64,000 bases of DNA, taken from positions 56,708,570 to 56,772,569 of the forward strand of contig NC_084667.1 in NCBI RefSeq assembly GCF_028389875.1, read 5' to 3'. Shown one piece after another: positions 1,684 through 62,793 of this stretch. How positions within the stretch are numbered: position 1 is the first letter of the stretch; each line of letters begins with the position of its first letter. A program made the position numbers and the translations under genes. This DNA comes from Rhea pennata. Its lineage: Eukaryota; Chordata; Aves; Rheiformes; Rheidae. Under the pieces are notes generated by a model, which was not told where the DNA came from, ran no database searches, and saw only the letters and a list, made by a program, of their open reading frames with translations.

Positions 1684-23070
<21,387 letters not shown>

Positions 23071-33167: not shown

Positions 33168-47484
<14,317 letters not shown>

Positions 47485-54025: not shown

Positions 54026-56048
54026 TTTATTTATCTATGAATCTTCTCTAAGATTCATTGATATTATCATGCTGTTGAGGACATGCTGAAATTAAATAAT
54101 ACTACATTCAGTTGGCACCTATTTTCTTGGAAACAGGTAAAAATGCACTTAATAGCTCTTCAGTGACAATGAATATTCATTAATATGACACATATGTATA
54201 CTTGATTTGTAAATAAGAACAGTAATTAAAGAGCTATCAAGGTTAAAAAGCAACAAAGGAAATTTAACTATTTTAAGATTTGCCTGGTATTAGACTCTAG
54301 CCTACGTGTGGATGGAAAAGAACAGAAAGCCTGAGATTTTCTAGATTATTTTAAACAGATTTTATCTCCTGACTGTGTTGTATACCACTAGACTATGGGC
54401 TCTGCACTCACTTCCAAAACTCTTTATGTCTGTGTATTTCCCGATGAATTGAGGATTCATTTTTCCTGTTTTGCAGAACAGCTGTACTCCACTACTGCAC
54501 TGCTCTTCAAACTCCATCCCACACATCGCTCTTGGGATGTTGAAATGATGTGACTTGAAAGGGAAATTTTCTGCATGATTTTGGGAAGGAAGCTGTTTAT
54601 GATCGATTGCTTACATTCATTATTTCTGTTACAGCAGTCCGTGACCTGCTAGTCATGCTGCTTTAACTGCTTTGCTATAATCTCTGATTAGAGTCCTGCA
54701 TGGCCCCAGCTTTTAAGAGTACTTTATCAGAGAGGTTTCACACAAGTTGATTTGCAGGGGTGACTTCAGAAGAAGTGATCTGAGCAGTATGTACGTTATG
54801 AGTGAGTCAGAAGAGAGGTGATGGCACTGCTTTATGTGGAGTGAGGCAAGGTCCAAGGAAGTGGGAACACTTGGCAGGATCAAGTGACCACACTTCTCCC
54901 TCATGCCTAGAACAAATCTTGTGCAATTTTACTTACCTTATCCAACCATTCTCCTCCCAGTGTGCAAAGATACTGCAGATTGTCAGCAAGACCAGGATCC
55001 TGAGAGACAGCAGAGACAAGGGCAGTGGCAAGGAAGTACCAGCACCTCTATTTAGCATATAAAAAGTCAGCTGTATCTCTTCCAAATTGAGGTATGCTGT
55101 TGAGAGGAGGTCACCACACTTGGTCATACATCACCACTCTCCCTTTCCGGGGAGGATCTCCTAGATAATTTCCCCATAAGAAATTATGACAAGAACTGAA
55201 GCAAATCAGTGAGAGAGGCAGACAGATATTTTAACTTTTAACCCAGTTCTGTAGCAGTAAAGAAAAAAAGTGAATAAACTTACTGGTTTGGTGTTTCAGG
55301 CCAGCGAGGAGAGTTAACAGCATATTGCCTGAACTAGAAGCAGGTAAACTGCGTTTCCCTTCGCTATATGCTAACTTTTCCTTTCCTTTTTAAGACTCTC
55401 TTTCTAAACAGCAGCACACAGTGGAGAGATACACATAAAACTTGTGATAGAGCCAGGAGAGGAAACCTAGTCCCCTGAATCCCATTTCTTCACAGCAATC
55501 TCAGTAACACTTTAGTCTTCTTTATAGGTGTATGTTCACAGATGGCAACACTGGCTAGACTGTGTGTCACTGCACTGCTGTATTTCCTCACATACAAATA
55601 CCAAGGCAACATTTTTTGACTGGATTGTCAGCTTTTGGCAGGTGAAGTTGAGCTTTTTTGGCCTTTTTTTTTTTCCTGGAAACAATTAGAATTCCACCCT
55701 TCAACTAGCGTGTTGCTATTTCAATCCAATACAGTTTATCCTTCTAACAAGTGAAAGTGCCAGTATTTGCTTTTTTTTGAAACTCAACCTGAGAGTTTTC
55801 AAAAGCCTGGGAATTCGCTCACCCAGTTCTTAACGGTTTTTAATCAGTTTTCCAGCACCTTTAGCCGCATTCGGAAAAGCCTGGGCGGGAGATCCCCGCG
55901 GGGGGCTAGCAGCAGCCGCCAGGAGCGGGGCCCGGAGGGGCCTGGGGCGGGCGGGCGATGCGCGCTCCCGGCGGCGCCGCTGCCCCGTGCGTCCGTGCTG
56001 CCCGCTCGCGAGGAAGAGGCGGGTTTGGCCGCGGGGCGCGGCGGGGGC

Positions 56049-56108
56049 GGGGGCCGGGGCCGGGGCCGGGGCCGGGGCCGGGGCCGGGGCGGGGGCCGGG
56101 GCGGGCGG
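56049..56108. repeat. GGGGCC hexanucleotide repeat
   Basis: Six consecutive perfect GGGGCC units (56050-56085) are followed by interrupted G4-5C1-2 units to about 56108. The block ends some 60 bases upstream of the chosen kinase start codon and is in an open frame continuous with it, where it would read as alternating Gly-Ala. Confidence 0.9.
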
Positions 56109-56169
56109 CGCTCGCCTGGCCCCGCGGCGGCAGAGCGGCCGCAGCGCGCAGCGCGCAGCGCCGCTCCCC

Positions 56170-56649
56170 ATGGAGCCGGCGGAGCGGGCGCGACGGGCCG
56201 CCCGCCTGGGCGCCGCGGCGCTGCTGGCGCTGCTGGCGCTGCTGGCGCTGCTGGCGCTGCCGGCCGGCCGCGGCGGTGAGGGGCGGCGGCGGCGGGGCGC
56301 CCCGCCGCTGCCGCCGGGCTTGCTGGAGGAGCTGCGGCAGCGGCGGCGCGACGTGCGGCGCTTGGCGGCGGGCGGCGGCGGGGCGGCGGCGGGCGCGCTG
56401 GGCTGCGACGCCCTGCGGCGGGTGTCGGGCGCCAGCGTGGTGGGCTGGGGCTTCAGCAAGGTGGTGCTGCGGGCGGCGCTGGCGGGCGGCGGCGCGCTCG
56501 CCCTCAAGTCGGTGCACGGCGCGGGCCGCGAGGTGCGGCAGTGCGTGCAGCGCTACGCGGCCCCCGCCGGCTGCTACCGCCTGGCCGCCTACAAGCTGCT
56601 CAAGGAGGTGGCGCTGCTGCAGCGCCTGCGGCACCCCGGCATCGTGCAG
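56170..56649 (+). CDS. PKDCC-like: PKDCC-like exon 1 (residues 1-160)
   Basis: Signal peptide, basic/Pro-rich linker, then the kinase N lobe: glycine loop at 92-97, Lys113, helix C ([20 protein letters not shown]) and HPGIVQ. Donor TGCAG|GTACGG, phase 0. The hydrophobic core is encoded by four and a half copies of a 9-base GCGCTGCTG unit (56218-56260 region). Confidence 0.88.
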
Positions 56650-59600
56650 GTACGGCGCGGCGGCGGCCGGGCGCGCCCGGCGCCGTCGGGCGGCGGCGAG
56701 CCCCGCGCGGGCGGCGGGTTGCGCGGGTGTCGCGGCGGGCGCCGGCGCCGGGGCTGCAGCCGTGCGATGCGCCTCGTTCATAGGGAAATTCCCCCAGGCC
56801 GCGTCCTGCATCGCTCGCCGCCGCAGCCGCCCGGGGCCCCGACGCGGGAGCGCGGCGGGTCCCGGCCCGGCCCCGGCGCTCCGGCTTTGGCTTGCCGGGA
56901 GCACAGCGCGCGCGGTGGTGCCCGTGGCTCTAATTGACTCCCGAGGGCTGAGTCGGTCTGTCGGTATTTATTCAGCCTCCCCCAGTCCGCCTTGCTGCCT
57001 GGAAAGCCGTCCCGCGCTTCCTTGCATCCTGGCTGGCACTGCTCTGAGACTGCTGCTGCTCTCTCCGCAGCTGCATGGTCAATGCTATGATAACAGCGGA
57101 GATCCTGAAGTAAGGGTCACAGCTATGCTGGAGCTGGGATCCCCCCTGGAGATGATTCAGCTTCTGCAGACCCCCTGGGAGGAGAGATTTAAAGTAAGAA
57201 AACAAAACAAAGGGAGTTTTCTCAGTAGCTTTTAGACCTCGAACTGAGTAGATGTGAAGAGCCCATGATGACTGCCGGGGCAAAAGGGATTGTCATGCTG
57301 ACACTCTTGTTTGCTCCTGCAAATTACCTTTAAATCACTTTATTTTTGGTCCTTTTAAAATGCATTAAAAATAGCCATAGTCCAGAGTTTCACAGATAGA
57401 TTTCTTTCCTCTAACGTGGCTTAAAAGAGGAATTTTGCTGGGAAGAAATGGCAGCAAAATCTTGCTCAGGGTTGTGCTGGTGTGAATACACGGTATTATA
57501 CTACAGTTTTAGTTGATTGTCTCCTCCACAGAGGGACTAATGGCTTTCATGGCCAGACGCATCAGCAGACAGGGACTGACTCAGGAAAGCCACCTAACCT
57601 TGCTATGTGTCTGCTGTTGGCTGCCTGTGTATTACCTATTTCTAGGCAGCAAGCTGAGCAGCCTGTCTTGCTGTGTGTTTGTGTGATGTTTCTGATCTTA
57701 GCCCTTTAGGTACTACTCTAATACAAACACTGCTAAATTGCTTTCTTCATGCTGTAGGTGATAGGATCACATCCCTGTTCCTGGTATCTGTCTTGTCTCC
57801 TAAACATTACACATAGAGACTTTTAAGCTCGCCATGAGCATAAAGGACTTAAGACATGGCAGGTGCTTTGGTTATGGCATGTATTACAATTTTGCCTCAA
57901 GGTCTCAGTTGGGGGCTGATGCTACTTGTTTGCTTCCTGGGAGGAAGGACAGCATCAAGTAGAAGTGTGGGTACTTTAATGTCAATACAAAATGTTTTGG
58001 GTAAAATAAAATCACAGCAAAATTCCCAAAATAAAATTCCTTGCCATGCTGAATGTTGAAAATGAACCTTGCTGTCCAAGCCGGAGCAAGAGTGTGGCAG
58101 CTGGACTCACTGAGCTGCGGAAAGTGAAGCTGGGTTCACTTCGACTTGATTGCTTCACTAGTGAGGTTAAAATAGTGTCAAAGCTTCCAGAATCATTTCT
58201 CCTGACCTGTGGAGTTCCACTCTTGCTAGCAAGCTGTTTTATACTGGCTTCTGCATAGGTTTCTGTGCACTTCGTCTTCTCAAAAACGTAGACATCTTCT
58301 ACAGAGCTGAGAAACCAATATTACTGGATTTCATGGTGGCATTAAAATTTTAATAATCTTTCAATAGCTCAAGGCACTAACACAGAAAGTAGACTGACCC
58401 TATCTAGCCCTGTTTCCTGATTAGGGCATCTAAATGGATGGGATTTTCCCTGTAATGAGCTGCATCAGATACCAGGGAGTCTGTGAGTGGTTTCAAGTGA
58501 GCAAACGCTTGTGCCTGCATAGATCGCTATCTGAGGCAGAGAGACATAGTGCAGATCTGACTGTGGCACACCTGGCTGAGGATGCAGTTAATCTGACCCT
58601 AGGACTCCCAATAGTGAATGAAAAATGCTATAGCTGCTTAAAGTGCTGGGTCAGTGTAAATGCACTCTTTTAGCTGCAGTTTGTTCAAAAGTTGCCTACA
58701 AAGCTTTATGCTGGATCAGGTATTCTCTGACCTTTCCCTGCTGCCAGAAAGTTGACACAAAAGCAGAAAGCTGGCATAAAATACATTGCATACTTTGGCT
58801 AGTTTTTCAGAAATATGATTTTGTGCCCAAATTTGTACAGCTGAGTGATGCAGCAGCATATGAATCTGGTATTAATGACCATGGAGACTCAGTCTATATG
58901 GAGCAGCATGGGGGAAGGGAGGGGAAGGTATTAATTCTATGCCAGAATAGAGGGGGAAAAATTCTTCTGATTTCAGCTAGCAAATCAGTACAGATCCTGA
59001 AACACGAAGGCTGCTATAGTTTTTCTCATAGCTTTCTCCTCTAGTTAGTATAACTGCACATCTCTTTTTTGTACATACATGTTTTTAAAAAAATGTTGCT
59101 AAACTACTTACACAGTCAAATCCTGTGGCAATGTTGATAATAAATTTTGTAGCATACATATAATTACCTTTTAAGTACTATATGCTTTTTTGCCTTTAAT
59201 TTCATTGAATGCCCTCTCCTTTGTTCTATTTCCAGTTTAATAGCTGTTTTTCATCTGTTTTTCCATGCATATTCATCTTCTCTTTCTCAGATTTGCCTGA
59301 GTCTTGTGAAACTGCTGTTTTACTTGGCACATTCCCCCCTGGGTTCAATAGTCCTCTTGGATTTCCAGCCAAGGCAGTTTGTTATGGTGGATGGAAATCT
59401 AAAAGTGACAGACCTGGATGACGCCAGCACCGAGGAGCTGTCATGCAAGGAAGATAATGACTGCACACTGGACTTCCCTACGAGAAGCTTTCCTCTCAAA
59501 TGCTCTACAGCTGGGAAGTGTGAAGGGATGAATGAAAAGAAGAATCTTTTCAATGCATATCGGTATGTCCAATTAGCTAGGGAAGAAAATCTGGCTTGTT

Positions 59601-62600
59601 TGAACTCACAGAATGCCGGTAGCATGTAGTATCTCACATTTCTTCCATGCAGTGTTTCCCCCTCACCTCTGTCAGAGGGTAGTTAAGGATTGCTTTGAAG
59701 CAAGTTTATTTTCCCTGTAAGGCAGGAAAATAGTTTGGTTGTTGTCTAGGGAGAATGTAGGCATCCTTCTTCTACTGCTCCCTTTCCCTAATGCCCTCGA
59801 GAAATTTGCTTCAGAGGTTGCACCTGTGGATTTGCCTTTTGCCAAACAAGACCTACTAAAAGCCCTGTCATTTGAAAGCCACCGGCTGTGTTTGCTGGGA
59901 GCGGTGGCAGTGCAGGCTGCCTGCTGAAGCGCATCGGCTCTGACCCGCTGGTGCTGGGAACGGGCTAGCTACCCTTACCGTTGAACTCTGCCTCTCTGCC
60001 AAAACTGTGGGCAGCTACGGAACAGTAATGAAACACCCAAATGATGGGCGAGAGGCTGAGGCTGCTGCATCACTTCACATAGGCCCCCAGCTAATCTTTA
60101 AAGTGTGATGACTTCCACTCACCATTGATGTTTGGCAGATCGGGTGAAAGTGGAAGTCTTGGCAGCTGGATATTTATACAGTTTTAGTGACTTGTTATGG
60201 GAGCCCTTGTTGGCAGGACTTGCTGTTAAAGGGTGAATCCCTGCATAGACTGTTACAGCCGTGCGATGATGTATTTATCTCTTGTAAACAGGAGTTTTCT
60301 GGAGGGTTCAGAAAATAAATAAGAGAGTATTCCACCTTTCCATGGGTAATCGGGTTGTGAACCCTTTTCAGGGCAAGAAGAAGGTCTTGCATGAGTCTTC
60401 TTTTGTATAGGTCTTTTTTATTGATGTCAAGTCCATTGGTTAGTGCACAAAAGCTGGGTCCAAGGAGTACAAATGAGGGAAAGCTCCATTGCTCGAGGCT
60501 TTGAAAGCTGAAGTGTGGTGCTTGGCTGCACTCTGTGCTGTAAAGACTAAGCTTCCACATTAGTCCGCAGAATGGTCTGTGAGATGCCAATGAAGTGTTC
60601 AAACATAATTTAAGAACCAAGGTAGACTTGCTAGTCACATGGGGCTAATCAAGCCAGAGGAAAATGTAGACAACTTAATCACTAAGGAATTTGAGCAACT
60701 GTATTCTAATCTGCCTGTGGGATTTTTGCAGGTATTTTTTCACCTATCTTCTGCCACACTCTGCACCTCCACCTTTACAGCCCTTTTTAAGTGATATTCT
60801 GAATGCAACAGGTACGGGCTAATATTCATAAACGAAGGCTTTTTTATTAGAAGATTGTAGATGGTATTTTTCTGGAATTACGCATCTCCTGTCATTTTTT
60901 TTCTTTAAATGTAGGTGATTTACGATATGGAATAAATGAAACCCTGGAAGCTTTTGAAAAGGTTTTACATCTGTACAAGTCTGGGCTCTATCTACAGAAA
61001 AGACCTCTTCTTTTAAAAGGTACATTATTTCAGATGCTTTAAGTAATACTAATAATTCCCAAGGGAGCAAGAAACTTTCTAATTGGCCAAATTCTGACTT
61101 CTCTTACATTCAGACAATCTGTAGTTACAAGAAATAGAATTCAACATCAAAGTATCTTTCTTTCCTCCCTCATTTAAGCAGTCTGTTGTTGTTTCTTTAT
61201 GGGAGTTATGCATGATTACATTGTCTTGCAAAGTAAATGCCGTACAGACAGTCTGGCATACATATGAACATATGTTTGCACTACTTCTAAATACCGTTTT
61301 CAGAACGGGCATCAGCCTGTATTTTAAGTGAATTGATGTATTTGCTATAGCTTAAGCAAGTAGACCAGAGAAGTAAACTTGAGTCTCTCGTTTTCTTCTC
61401 TCTTCAGTGTCGTCTTATTCTCTTGACAAATAGAGCAATTTTTCAGGTTGATACACAGTCTTCCCCTGTTTCACTTGATGGCTTCTGGCTGGTCAGCACA
61501 GTTTATTATAGGAGCACAAGGTGTGTGGGGGTCACGCAGTGACTCAGCTGAATGTGGCTAGAGCCTTGCTGCCCTATTATGTATCTTTTTTTTCTGAAGA
61601 CCATTCCTCTGTTTGATGTATGGGTAGATAAAGGAGCCTTTATCAGTCATGTTCTTGTGTATAAATGGGACCTATTCCATGGTAGAGATGTGGCTGATCA
61701 TCCTTTCCAACTGGAAAGGCTCGGAAAGTCCAGCAGTTACTATGGCTTACATTTTCCTGAGTGTTTCCTTGAGGTGGTGGAGGAGTGATGGCAGCTTGAA
61801 GAAGGAAATCACTTTGTGCTCAGAGCAGCTGGAATTGGCACATTTATGAACAAAAATAGCAGGGCATTTGTGCTGAAGGATCAGCAGTTTTGACAGGAAT
61901 TGCCAGTGTTTTCCTATGATACCTACCTGTTGACTTAGCAGTTGGCCCAATAGCAACATGCTAACGTGATCACCGTCCCAGAGGTGTGGGAGGGTGGGGA
62001 GAGACTCTTAGTGAGCAATAACCTTCCCATTGCCTGCTCAGGCTTGTCAAGTCTTTTGTGTTCTGCTGGAACAAGATTTAGCCTCCCTTTCCTCTACTGT
62101 GGCTCTTAAATCTCCTGTTCCTGTGGGTGGCACCACAGTGTGTGGGTCACCGTGTGCCCCGTACTGCTACATGGCAGATCTGCAGTTCCCCAGGGAGCTG
62201 GTGCTGCTGTCGGGGCTGAGGGCACCGCTGCAACGTTGGCTCCTTTGGATCCCTGCTAGAACAGGCCACTCCTCATTGCAGCCTACGGATGTAGCCTCTG
62301 CCCTCTCATGCGCCCCCGTAGTCTCTCCCTGCCCCTTCATCCCATGTTGATTCTCTGCAGGAGAGAGCAGGCAGATCTCTCAAGTTTCCATCTGTTGAGG
62401 AATTGCTGCCCAGTGCTTGATAGGAGAAGTAAAAGTAAGGACTTGGGAGCTTTCTACTTTTGGAGCTTCGCTCACTCCATTTAAGCAGATCAGTTCAACC
62501 TATCGCTATCTCATTTCAGTGAAGAATTTCACTGGAGTGCAAAGTGTAACGTTTATGGTGTAACTAGTCATTGAAAGTGCACTTAGTTTCTCTAAATATC

Positions 62601-62793
62601 GTCTTTGTGTTCCCAGAATACATCTCCCTGAAGGGCTTCCGAACTGTGGAAGTAGAAGACTATAAATGCTGGCCCTCCTACAGCCACCTGCGATGCCTGC
62701 TGTCTGTCCATGGTGCCGAGGAAGCTGCTGCAATTTGCAACTCCCAGTCCCAATGTCAGAGTTTTATTGTCACTCAGCAGAGGACATGGACAG
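56170..62793 (+). CDS. PKDCC-like: PKDCC/VLK-family secreted tyrosine kinase, second paralogue (3' end outside window)
   Basis: Joined exons: 56170-56649, 57071-57193, 59291-59562, 60732-60811, 60915-61019, 62617-62793 (1237 nt, 412 codons, in phase throughout). Human PKDCC has 493 residues, so about 80 residues and the stop should lie in one more exon past 64000. PKDCC (vertebrate lonesome kinase) is secreted and phosphorylates tyrosines of proteins in the secretory pathway and outside the cell; it acts in skeletal growth. Visible: signal peptide (about 11-32, an ALL repeat), glycine loop GWGFSK (92-97), ATP-binding Lys113 in ALALKS, helix C Glu146, LLDF catalytic-loop segment with Asp225, and DLDD (242-245) in place of DFG, the divergent form typical of this family. 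N-glycosylation motifs NAT and NET lie near 316-330. Chosen start has CCCCATGG context. Mammalian PKDCC sits beside EML4, not CYP46A1, so I infer the second paralogue, corresponding to the second Pkdcc gene of Xenopus. Confidence 0.88.
57071..57193 (+). CDS. PKDCC-like: PKDCC-like exon 2 (residues 161-201)
   Basis: Acceptor CTCCGCAG|CTG and donor TTAAA|GTAAGA, 41 codons. Encodes [40 protein letters not shown]: the hinge and start of the C lobe, strongly PKDCC-like. The following intron (57194-59290) shows nothing I can name. Confidence 0.9.
59291..59562 (+). CDS. PKDCC-like: PKDCC-like exon 3, catalytic core (residues 202-291)
   Basis: Acceptor TTCTCAG|ATT and donor TATCG|GTATGT (split Arg codon). 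Encodes [31 protein letters not shown] and a cysteine-containing insert ([38 protein letters not shown]). The canonical HRD and DFG triplets are replaced as in other PKDCC proteins. Confidence 0.9.
60732..60811 (+). CDS. PKDCC-like: PKDCC-like exon 4 (residues 292-318)
   Basis: Acceptor TTTTGCAG|GTA and donor AACAG|GTACGG. Encodes [20 protein letters not shown] then DILNAT. Too short to show as a long open frame; found by phase matching of splice sites. Confidence 0.88.
60915..61019 (+). CDS. PKDCC-like: PKDCC-like exon 5 (residues 319-353)
   Basis: Acceptor AATGTAG|GTG and donor AAAAG|GTACAT. Encodes [20 protein letters not shown] then [14 protein letters not shown]. Only 103 bases of intron separate it from exon 4. 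Confidence 0.88.
62617..62793 (+). CDS. PKDCC-like: PKDCC-like exon 6 (residues 354-412)
   Basis: Acceptor TTCCCAG|AAT and donor GACAG|GTGAGC, leaving one base for a further exon. Encodes [37 protein letters not shown] and [16 protein letters not shown], the conserved cysteine-rich C-terminal part of PKDCC. Confidence 0.9.

Follow-up and report, generated by a model that had tools for sequence, protein, structure and literature searches.

The gene PKDCCB, whose first six exons lie at positions 56170 to 62793 of a 64,000-nucleotide stretch of the Rhea pennata genome (the window; C5:56708570-56772569, NC_084667.1), very probably represents an intact avian second member of a PKDCC/VLK pair, descended from an ancestral PKDCC-EML block that was copied during the genome duplications of early vertebrates. 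Two PKDCC/VLK-family genes are present in this bird genome (1.27 Gb, 180 contigs), one on contig C3 and the other, PKDCCB, on contig C5. An ohnologue origin had been proposed in an initial annotation of the window; our analysis sustains this proposal as regards the sister copy, the matching gene order, and the pairing of EML, SIX, and RTN genes, with the MTA genes falling outside that pairing.

An intact PKDCCB gene and its sister copy

The six-exon PKDCC-type kinase previously annotated at this position was borne out in its coordinates, splice sites, and frame. Splice-joined translation of the six exons (Table 1) runs in a single reading frame throughout, with GT at 6/6 donors and AG at 5/5 acceptors, and a chance origin for this structure is excluded. 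The missing last exon was located just beyond the window, completing a seven-exon gene that encodes a protein of 446 amino acids (aa) with no internal stop or frameshift. Within the listed open reading frame, no in-frame ATG was found 5' of position 56170. In the six-exon protein, the protein-kinase domain of FAM69 (Pfam PF12260) is recognised at E 3.2e-10; applied to the genome one exon at a time, the same profile gave 8 matches, with 0 in the window and 0 in the C3 gene.

A genome-wide six-frame search with PKDCCB residues 1-412 (exons 1-6) as the query, at E values up to 10 and with 16/16 candidates scored, yielded 14 matches: (i) six to the window gene, one of which runs from intron 1 into exon 2, (ii) six at C3:27814753-27848306, where the weakest exon match has an E value of 0.499, and (iii) two weak matches elsewhere. 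Upon re-comparison, the latter (C3:75472841, E 2.64; C6:18073833, E 8.7) showed no kinase likeness. Exactly one further PKDCC locus is thus found in the same genome, on C3 and beside an EML4-type gene. The gene model at this locus has seven exons and encodes 485 residues; it shares with PKDCCB the number of introns (six each), all six intron phases, and the lengths of exons 2-4 (Table 1), and the two proteins align by BLASTP with 204/361 identities (E 3e-153).

The relationship of each copy to mammalian PKDCC was judged from pairwise identities (kinase start to C-terminus), which were used in place of a tree and for which a provisional human PKDCC sequence served. Over this stretch, PKDCCB is 56.0% identical to C3 PKDCC and 57.1% identical to human PKDCC, versus 73.4% between C3 PKDCC and human PKDCC, with both human figures being provisional. 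Across the whole proteins, PKDCCB and C3 PKDCC agree in 52.4% of aligned columns, or 229/485 residues. The C3 protein begins with MRRRKVAA, close to the MRRRKIAV encoded by the Xenopus pkdcc2 morpholino sequence in the available text of PMC4536202, and the RRLMDLAP stretch is also present in the C3 copy. Since the C3 copy is nearer to the human protein and starts like pkdcc2, these comparisons identify it as the orthologue of PKDCC in mammals, with the window gene being an outparalogue. The window gene does not group with mammalian PKDCC; the identities put the C3 copy there instead, the human sequence again being the provisional one. The converse assignment, in which the window gene is the true mammalian PKDCC orthologue and the C3 gene is the extra copy, can hardly be credited, given that it is the C3 copy that starts with MRRRK, contains the RRLMDLAP stretch, is the closer match to the provisional human PKDCC sequence, and adjoins the EML4-type gene.

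Paired gene order on C3 and C5

On both C3 and C5, PKDCC is followed by an EML gene, in the same order and with both genes on the + strand. To the right of PKDCCB, the first exon of EML1 was located with a probe (20/22 residues) at C5:56854232 (+), 81 kb past the PKDCCB stop codon. Searching the genome for the HELP domain gave 9 matches, among them an exon at C5:56908013 (+) that is identical to solved EML1 at 46/49 positions, and one at C3:28226429 (+), to the right of C3 PKDCC, that is identical to it at 38/49. Solved EML4 gave no match to the C3:28226429 HELP stretch; the C3 gene is termed EML4-type because it is less like EML1 and because of the human gene order, in which HHIPL1-CYP46A1 (14q32) is followed by EML1, and PKDCC (2p21) adjoins EML4. 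The EML1 neighbour anticipated on the right by the initial annotation is thus present on C5, while an EML4-type neighbour sits by the C3 copy instead. A single ancestral PKDCC-EML block, once duplicated, would have given rise to PKDCC-EML4 on the one hand and PKDCCB-EML1 on the other.

Beyond PKDCC-EML1/4, 3/4 families pair C3 with C5, namely the EML5/6-like genes, SIX, and RTN, but not MTA. HELP triplets, which we take to be EML5/6-like, lie at 14.8-14.95 Mb on C3 and at 51.05-51.16 Mb on C5; SIX domains lie at 30.56-30.64 Mb on C3 (2) and at 63.68-63.74 Mb on C5 (3), with a single further, weak match on C17; and reticulons (RTN) lie at 14.78 Mb on C3, at 64.14 Mb on C5, and also on C118. Altogether, the EML, SIX, and RTN pairs cover some 16 Mb of C3 and some 13 Mb of C5. 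Matches on a third contig occur for SIX (weak), RTN, and the EMLs, the ninth HELP exon being on C59. There, the HELP (EML-type; C59:165937) and MTA_R1 (C59:177769) exons are 12 kb apart, with no PKDCC match; this arrangement presumably corresponds to the human EML3-MTA2 neighbourhood, and the C59 region may belong to this paralogous block as a third arm.

Probable counterparts in chick and Xenopus

PKDCCB is already known, though little studied, since the chick gene has an Ensembl number (ENSGALG00000011166) as well as in situ data, published in 2016, that place its expression in the vestibulo-acoustic ganglion (PMC4730756, available text, which gives neither a genomic position nor an origin for the gene). 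The chick PKDCCB forward primer matches exon 3 at 59460-59479 with 18/20 bases, the only such site in the window when as many as 3 mismatches are allowed, and both differences fall at third positions and are synonymous; at the homologous C3 site, by contrast, only 12/20 bases match (8 mismatches). The reverse primer reaches at best 13/20 in the C3 loci examined. From the forward-primer fit, the window gene is almost certainly the same gene as chick PKDCCB, in another bird; the window bird departs from the chick primers by 2/20 forward and 5/20 reverse bases. The chick array probe Gga.12157.1.S1_at is labelled PKDCC, with the copy unspecified, in the available text of studies on otic induction (PMC3552847) and axis positioning (PMC4371885).

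As had been stated for the frog, two Pkdcc genes are described in Xenopus (PMC4536202, available text): Pkdcc1 of 449 aa and Pkdcc2 of 489 aa, with kinase-domain identities of 57.5% for Pkdcc1 and mouse, 57.8% for Pkdcc1 and Pkdcc2, and 75% for Pkdcc2 and mouse. Although different stretches were compared, this pattern resembles that of the C5/C3/human set. PKDCCB is like Xenopus laevis Pkdcc1 in length (446 versus 449 aa) and in its identity to mammalian PKDCC (57.1%, provisionally, to human versus 57.5% to mouse, the latter for the kinase domain), whereas the morpholino-derived Pkdcc1 start, MKNTISLC, is unlike that of PKDCCB. The window gene is probably the counterpart of Xenopus Pkdcc1. In the same source, X. 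laevis Pkdcc1 was knocked down (2015), and Xenopus without Pkdcc1 and Pkdcc2 displayed delayed closure of the blastopore and neural tube; both proteins bring Dishevelled to the membrane, and an Atf2 reporter is induced by Pkdcc1 but not by Pkdcc2, with Pkdcc2 inhibiting its induction by Wnt11 and Wnt5a.

With chick PKDCCB expression (PMC4730756) and Xenopus Pkdcc1 function (PMC4536202) already in print, the suggestion that little had been published on this copy and that its expression may be new is not supported. In the open-licence literature, with most subscription journals outside this scope, we found no statement on the ohnologue origin of PKDCCB, and pkdcc together with EML1 gave nothing on topic by title.

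Age of the duplication

PKDCC and the neighbouring EML gene might instead have been copied by a later, small-scale duplication, in sauropsids or amniotes, rather than in the early genome duplications, and the failure of MTA to follow the C3/C5 pairing would be in keeping with such an event. However, the C5-C3 identity of 56.0% is well below the provisional 73.4% between C3 and human PKDCC, so the C5/C3 split looks older than the split between birds and mammals. The existence of two Xenopus genes whose kinase-domain identities form a comparable pattern (PMC4536202, available text) likewise argues against a recent event, as does the extent, on the megabase scale, of the EML, SIX, and RTN pairs on each contig. 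We therefore deem a later duplication very unlikely.

Several points nonetheless weigh against an origin of PKDCCB in the early genome duplications, or against the identities adduced for the gene. These are that (i) the human figures of 57.1% and 73.4% are provisional, because the human PKDCC used in the comparison did not come from a database record; (ii) the Xenopus figures refer to the kinase domain alone, versus kinase start to C-terminus here, i.e., the stretches differ; (iii) whole-protein figures align less well, with 40.9% for the Xenopus pair (PMC4536202, available text) versus 52.4% of aligned columns here; (iv) the best site for the chick reverse primer matches at 15/20 bases, in the 3' untranslated region (extended position 64563); (v) MTA genes were found on C3, C8, and C59, with none found on C5; and (vi) the block families were chosen with the human 2p/14q map in mind, and are thus a non-random sample. 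An origin in the early vertebrate genome duplications is still our preferred account, under which the PKDCCB copy would have been lost in mammals, as suggested by the human gene map and by abstracts naming VLK as the only secreted or extracellular tyrosine kinase known.

Predicted activity and secretion of PKDCCB

According to reviews, mammalian VLK is a secreted tyrosine kinase that acts in the secretory pathway or outside the cell. PKDCCB has the same intron phases, kinase region, and C-terminal domain as C3 PKDCC and mammalian VLK. The kinase motifs ALK, KE, LLDFxPRQF, and KVTDLDDA are common to PKDCCB and C3 PKDCC, and the motif residues K113, E146, D225, and D242 are kept in PKDCCB, with the lysine, glutamate, and aspartate presumably playing their customary roles. 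All of the PKDCCB cysteines (13/13) are also present in C3 PKDCC, and residues 13-31 form an N-terminal hydrophobic segment by hydropathy (mean 2.56). Within exon 1, a 9-bp tandem repeat of 6.3 copies (window 56209-56264) specifies the Leu-Ala-Leu core of this presumed signal segment; consequently, the length of the segment may vary among individuals or species.

Together, the hydrophobic segment, the 13 shared cysteines, and the kept motifs are consistent with a kinase whose folding takes place in the secretory pathway and which acts either within it or extracellularly, and the PKDCCB product is most likely a Golgi/secreted VLK-type tyrosine kinase. Following entry into the secretory pathway via its N-terminal hydrophobic segment, the protein would, like VLK, phosphorylate tyrosines of Golgi and extracellular proteins. 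It may do so with an embryonic expression of its own, as in the chick vestibulo-acoustic ganglion.

Certain differences from C3 PKDCC could alternatively indicate a pseudokinase, or a decaying copy without catalytic function: the glycine loop is altered (GWGFSK in place of GSGYTK), the kinase region begins 45 residues earlier behind a shorter N-terminal linker, and there are 2 N-glycosylation motifs rather than 6. The C-terminal tails of the two proteins are also unlike one another. Such a loss of function appears improbable, as (i) the seven exons contain no stop or frameshift and have canonical splice sites, (ii) the four motif residues are kept and all 13 cysteines occur in C3 as well, (iii) the differences in the 20-base stretch matching the chick primer are all synonymous, and (iv) expression is evident from chick in situ hybridisation (PMC4730756, available text).

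A sequence search of the PDB for a solved VLK returned just three weak matches (E about 5e-4; ScRIPK kinase protein, hypothetical protein). Relatives, sought as vertebrate contamination, were found neither in IMG/VR contigs nor in GTDB genome contigs.

Features of the window and its surroundings

Table 1. Positions of PKDCCB exons, motifs, and neighbouring features (window coordinates unless indicated; nt, nucleotides)
Feature	Position	Strand	Remarks
HHIPL1-type exon frame	7119..7838	+	Folate-receptor and GSDH domains; left neighbour of PKDCCB
CYP46A1 heme-binding exon frame	46249..46491	+	Left neighbour of PKDCCB
CpG island	55880..56940	.	Promoter and PKDCCB exon 1; GC 0.834 and CpG observed/expected 1.07, versus 0.45 and 0.44 for the window overall
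PKDCCB exon 1	56170..56649	+	Start codon, hydrophobic putative signal region, N-lobe; donor GTACGG
Exon 1 motif ALKSVHG	56500-56520	+	Includes the lysine
Exon 1 motif LLKEVALL	56596-56619	+	
PKDCCB exon 2	57071..57193	+	123 nt; same length in C3 PKDCC
PKDCCB exon 3	59291..59562	+	272 nt; same length in C3 PKDCC
Exon 3 motif LLDFQPRQF	59354-59380	+	Putative catalytic loop
Exon 3 motif KVTDLDDA	59402-59425	+	Putative metal-binding loop
PKDCCB exon 4	60732..60811	+	80 nt; same length in C3 PKDCC
PKDCCB exon 5	60915..61019	+	105 nt, versus 108 in C3 PKDCC
PKDCCB exon 6	62617..62793	+	177 nt, versus 174 in C3 PKDCC
PKDCCB exon 7 (last)	L009:261-364 = C5:56772830-56772933		Outside the window, starting 261 bases past its end; closes with stop codon

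To the left of PKDCCB, the domains and solved-chain matches agree with the genes named by the initial annotation, HHIPL1 and CYP46A1. The frames at 7119 and 11490 bear folate-receptor and GSDH domains, a domain make-up that we take to denote HHIPL1; for the P450 heme exon at 46249, the two best solved-chain matches are cholesterol 24-hydroxylase/CYP46A1. To the right, 479 frames of at least 60 aa lie between the PKDCCB stop codon and EML1 exon 1; the ten longest, viewed by eye only and without a profile search, showed no obvious host gene. A 228-aa minus-strand frame in this interval (C5 56772933-56854232; L009-L017) displays likeness to a reverse transcriptase of the non-long-terminal-repeat type (CR1-like, by eye).

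A hexanucleotide array, (GGCCGG)n, is present at window positions 56027-56102 (12.5 copies, 87% matches), just 5' of where PKDCCB translation starts. We take this array to belong to the same motif family as the human C9orf72 GGGGCC repeat.

Implications

In 2022-2023, VLK was called the only known secreted/extracellular tyrosine kinase in the abstracts of PMC10017657 and PMC9016620. We consider it evenly balanced whether mammalian VLK is "lonesome" only through loss of its ohnologue, with birds keeping, in PKDCCB, an active second secreted tyrosine kinase that has substrates of its own in inner-ear neurons. Given that birds have a second intact copy and frogs have two genes, the roles revealed by mouse knockout may be shared by a pair of genes elsewhere; if the orthology is true, Xenopus Pkdcc1 and Pkdcc2 provide a precedent for a division of roles. 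As there are two avian copies, work on chick "PKDCC" should specify which copy was measured. Ultimately, the duplicated block provides a clean setting in which to distinguish those functions kept by PKDCC from those that went to the copy apparently missing from mammals.

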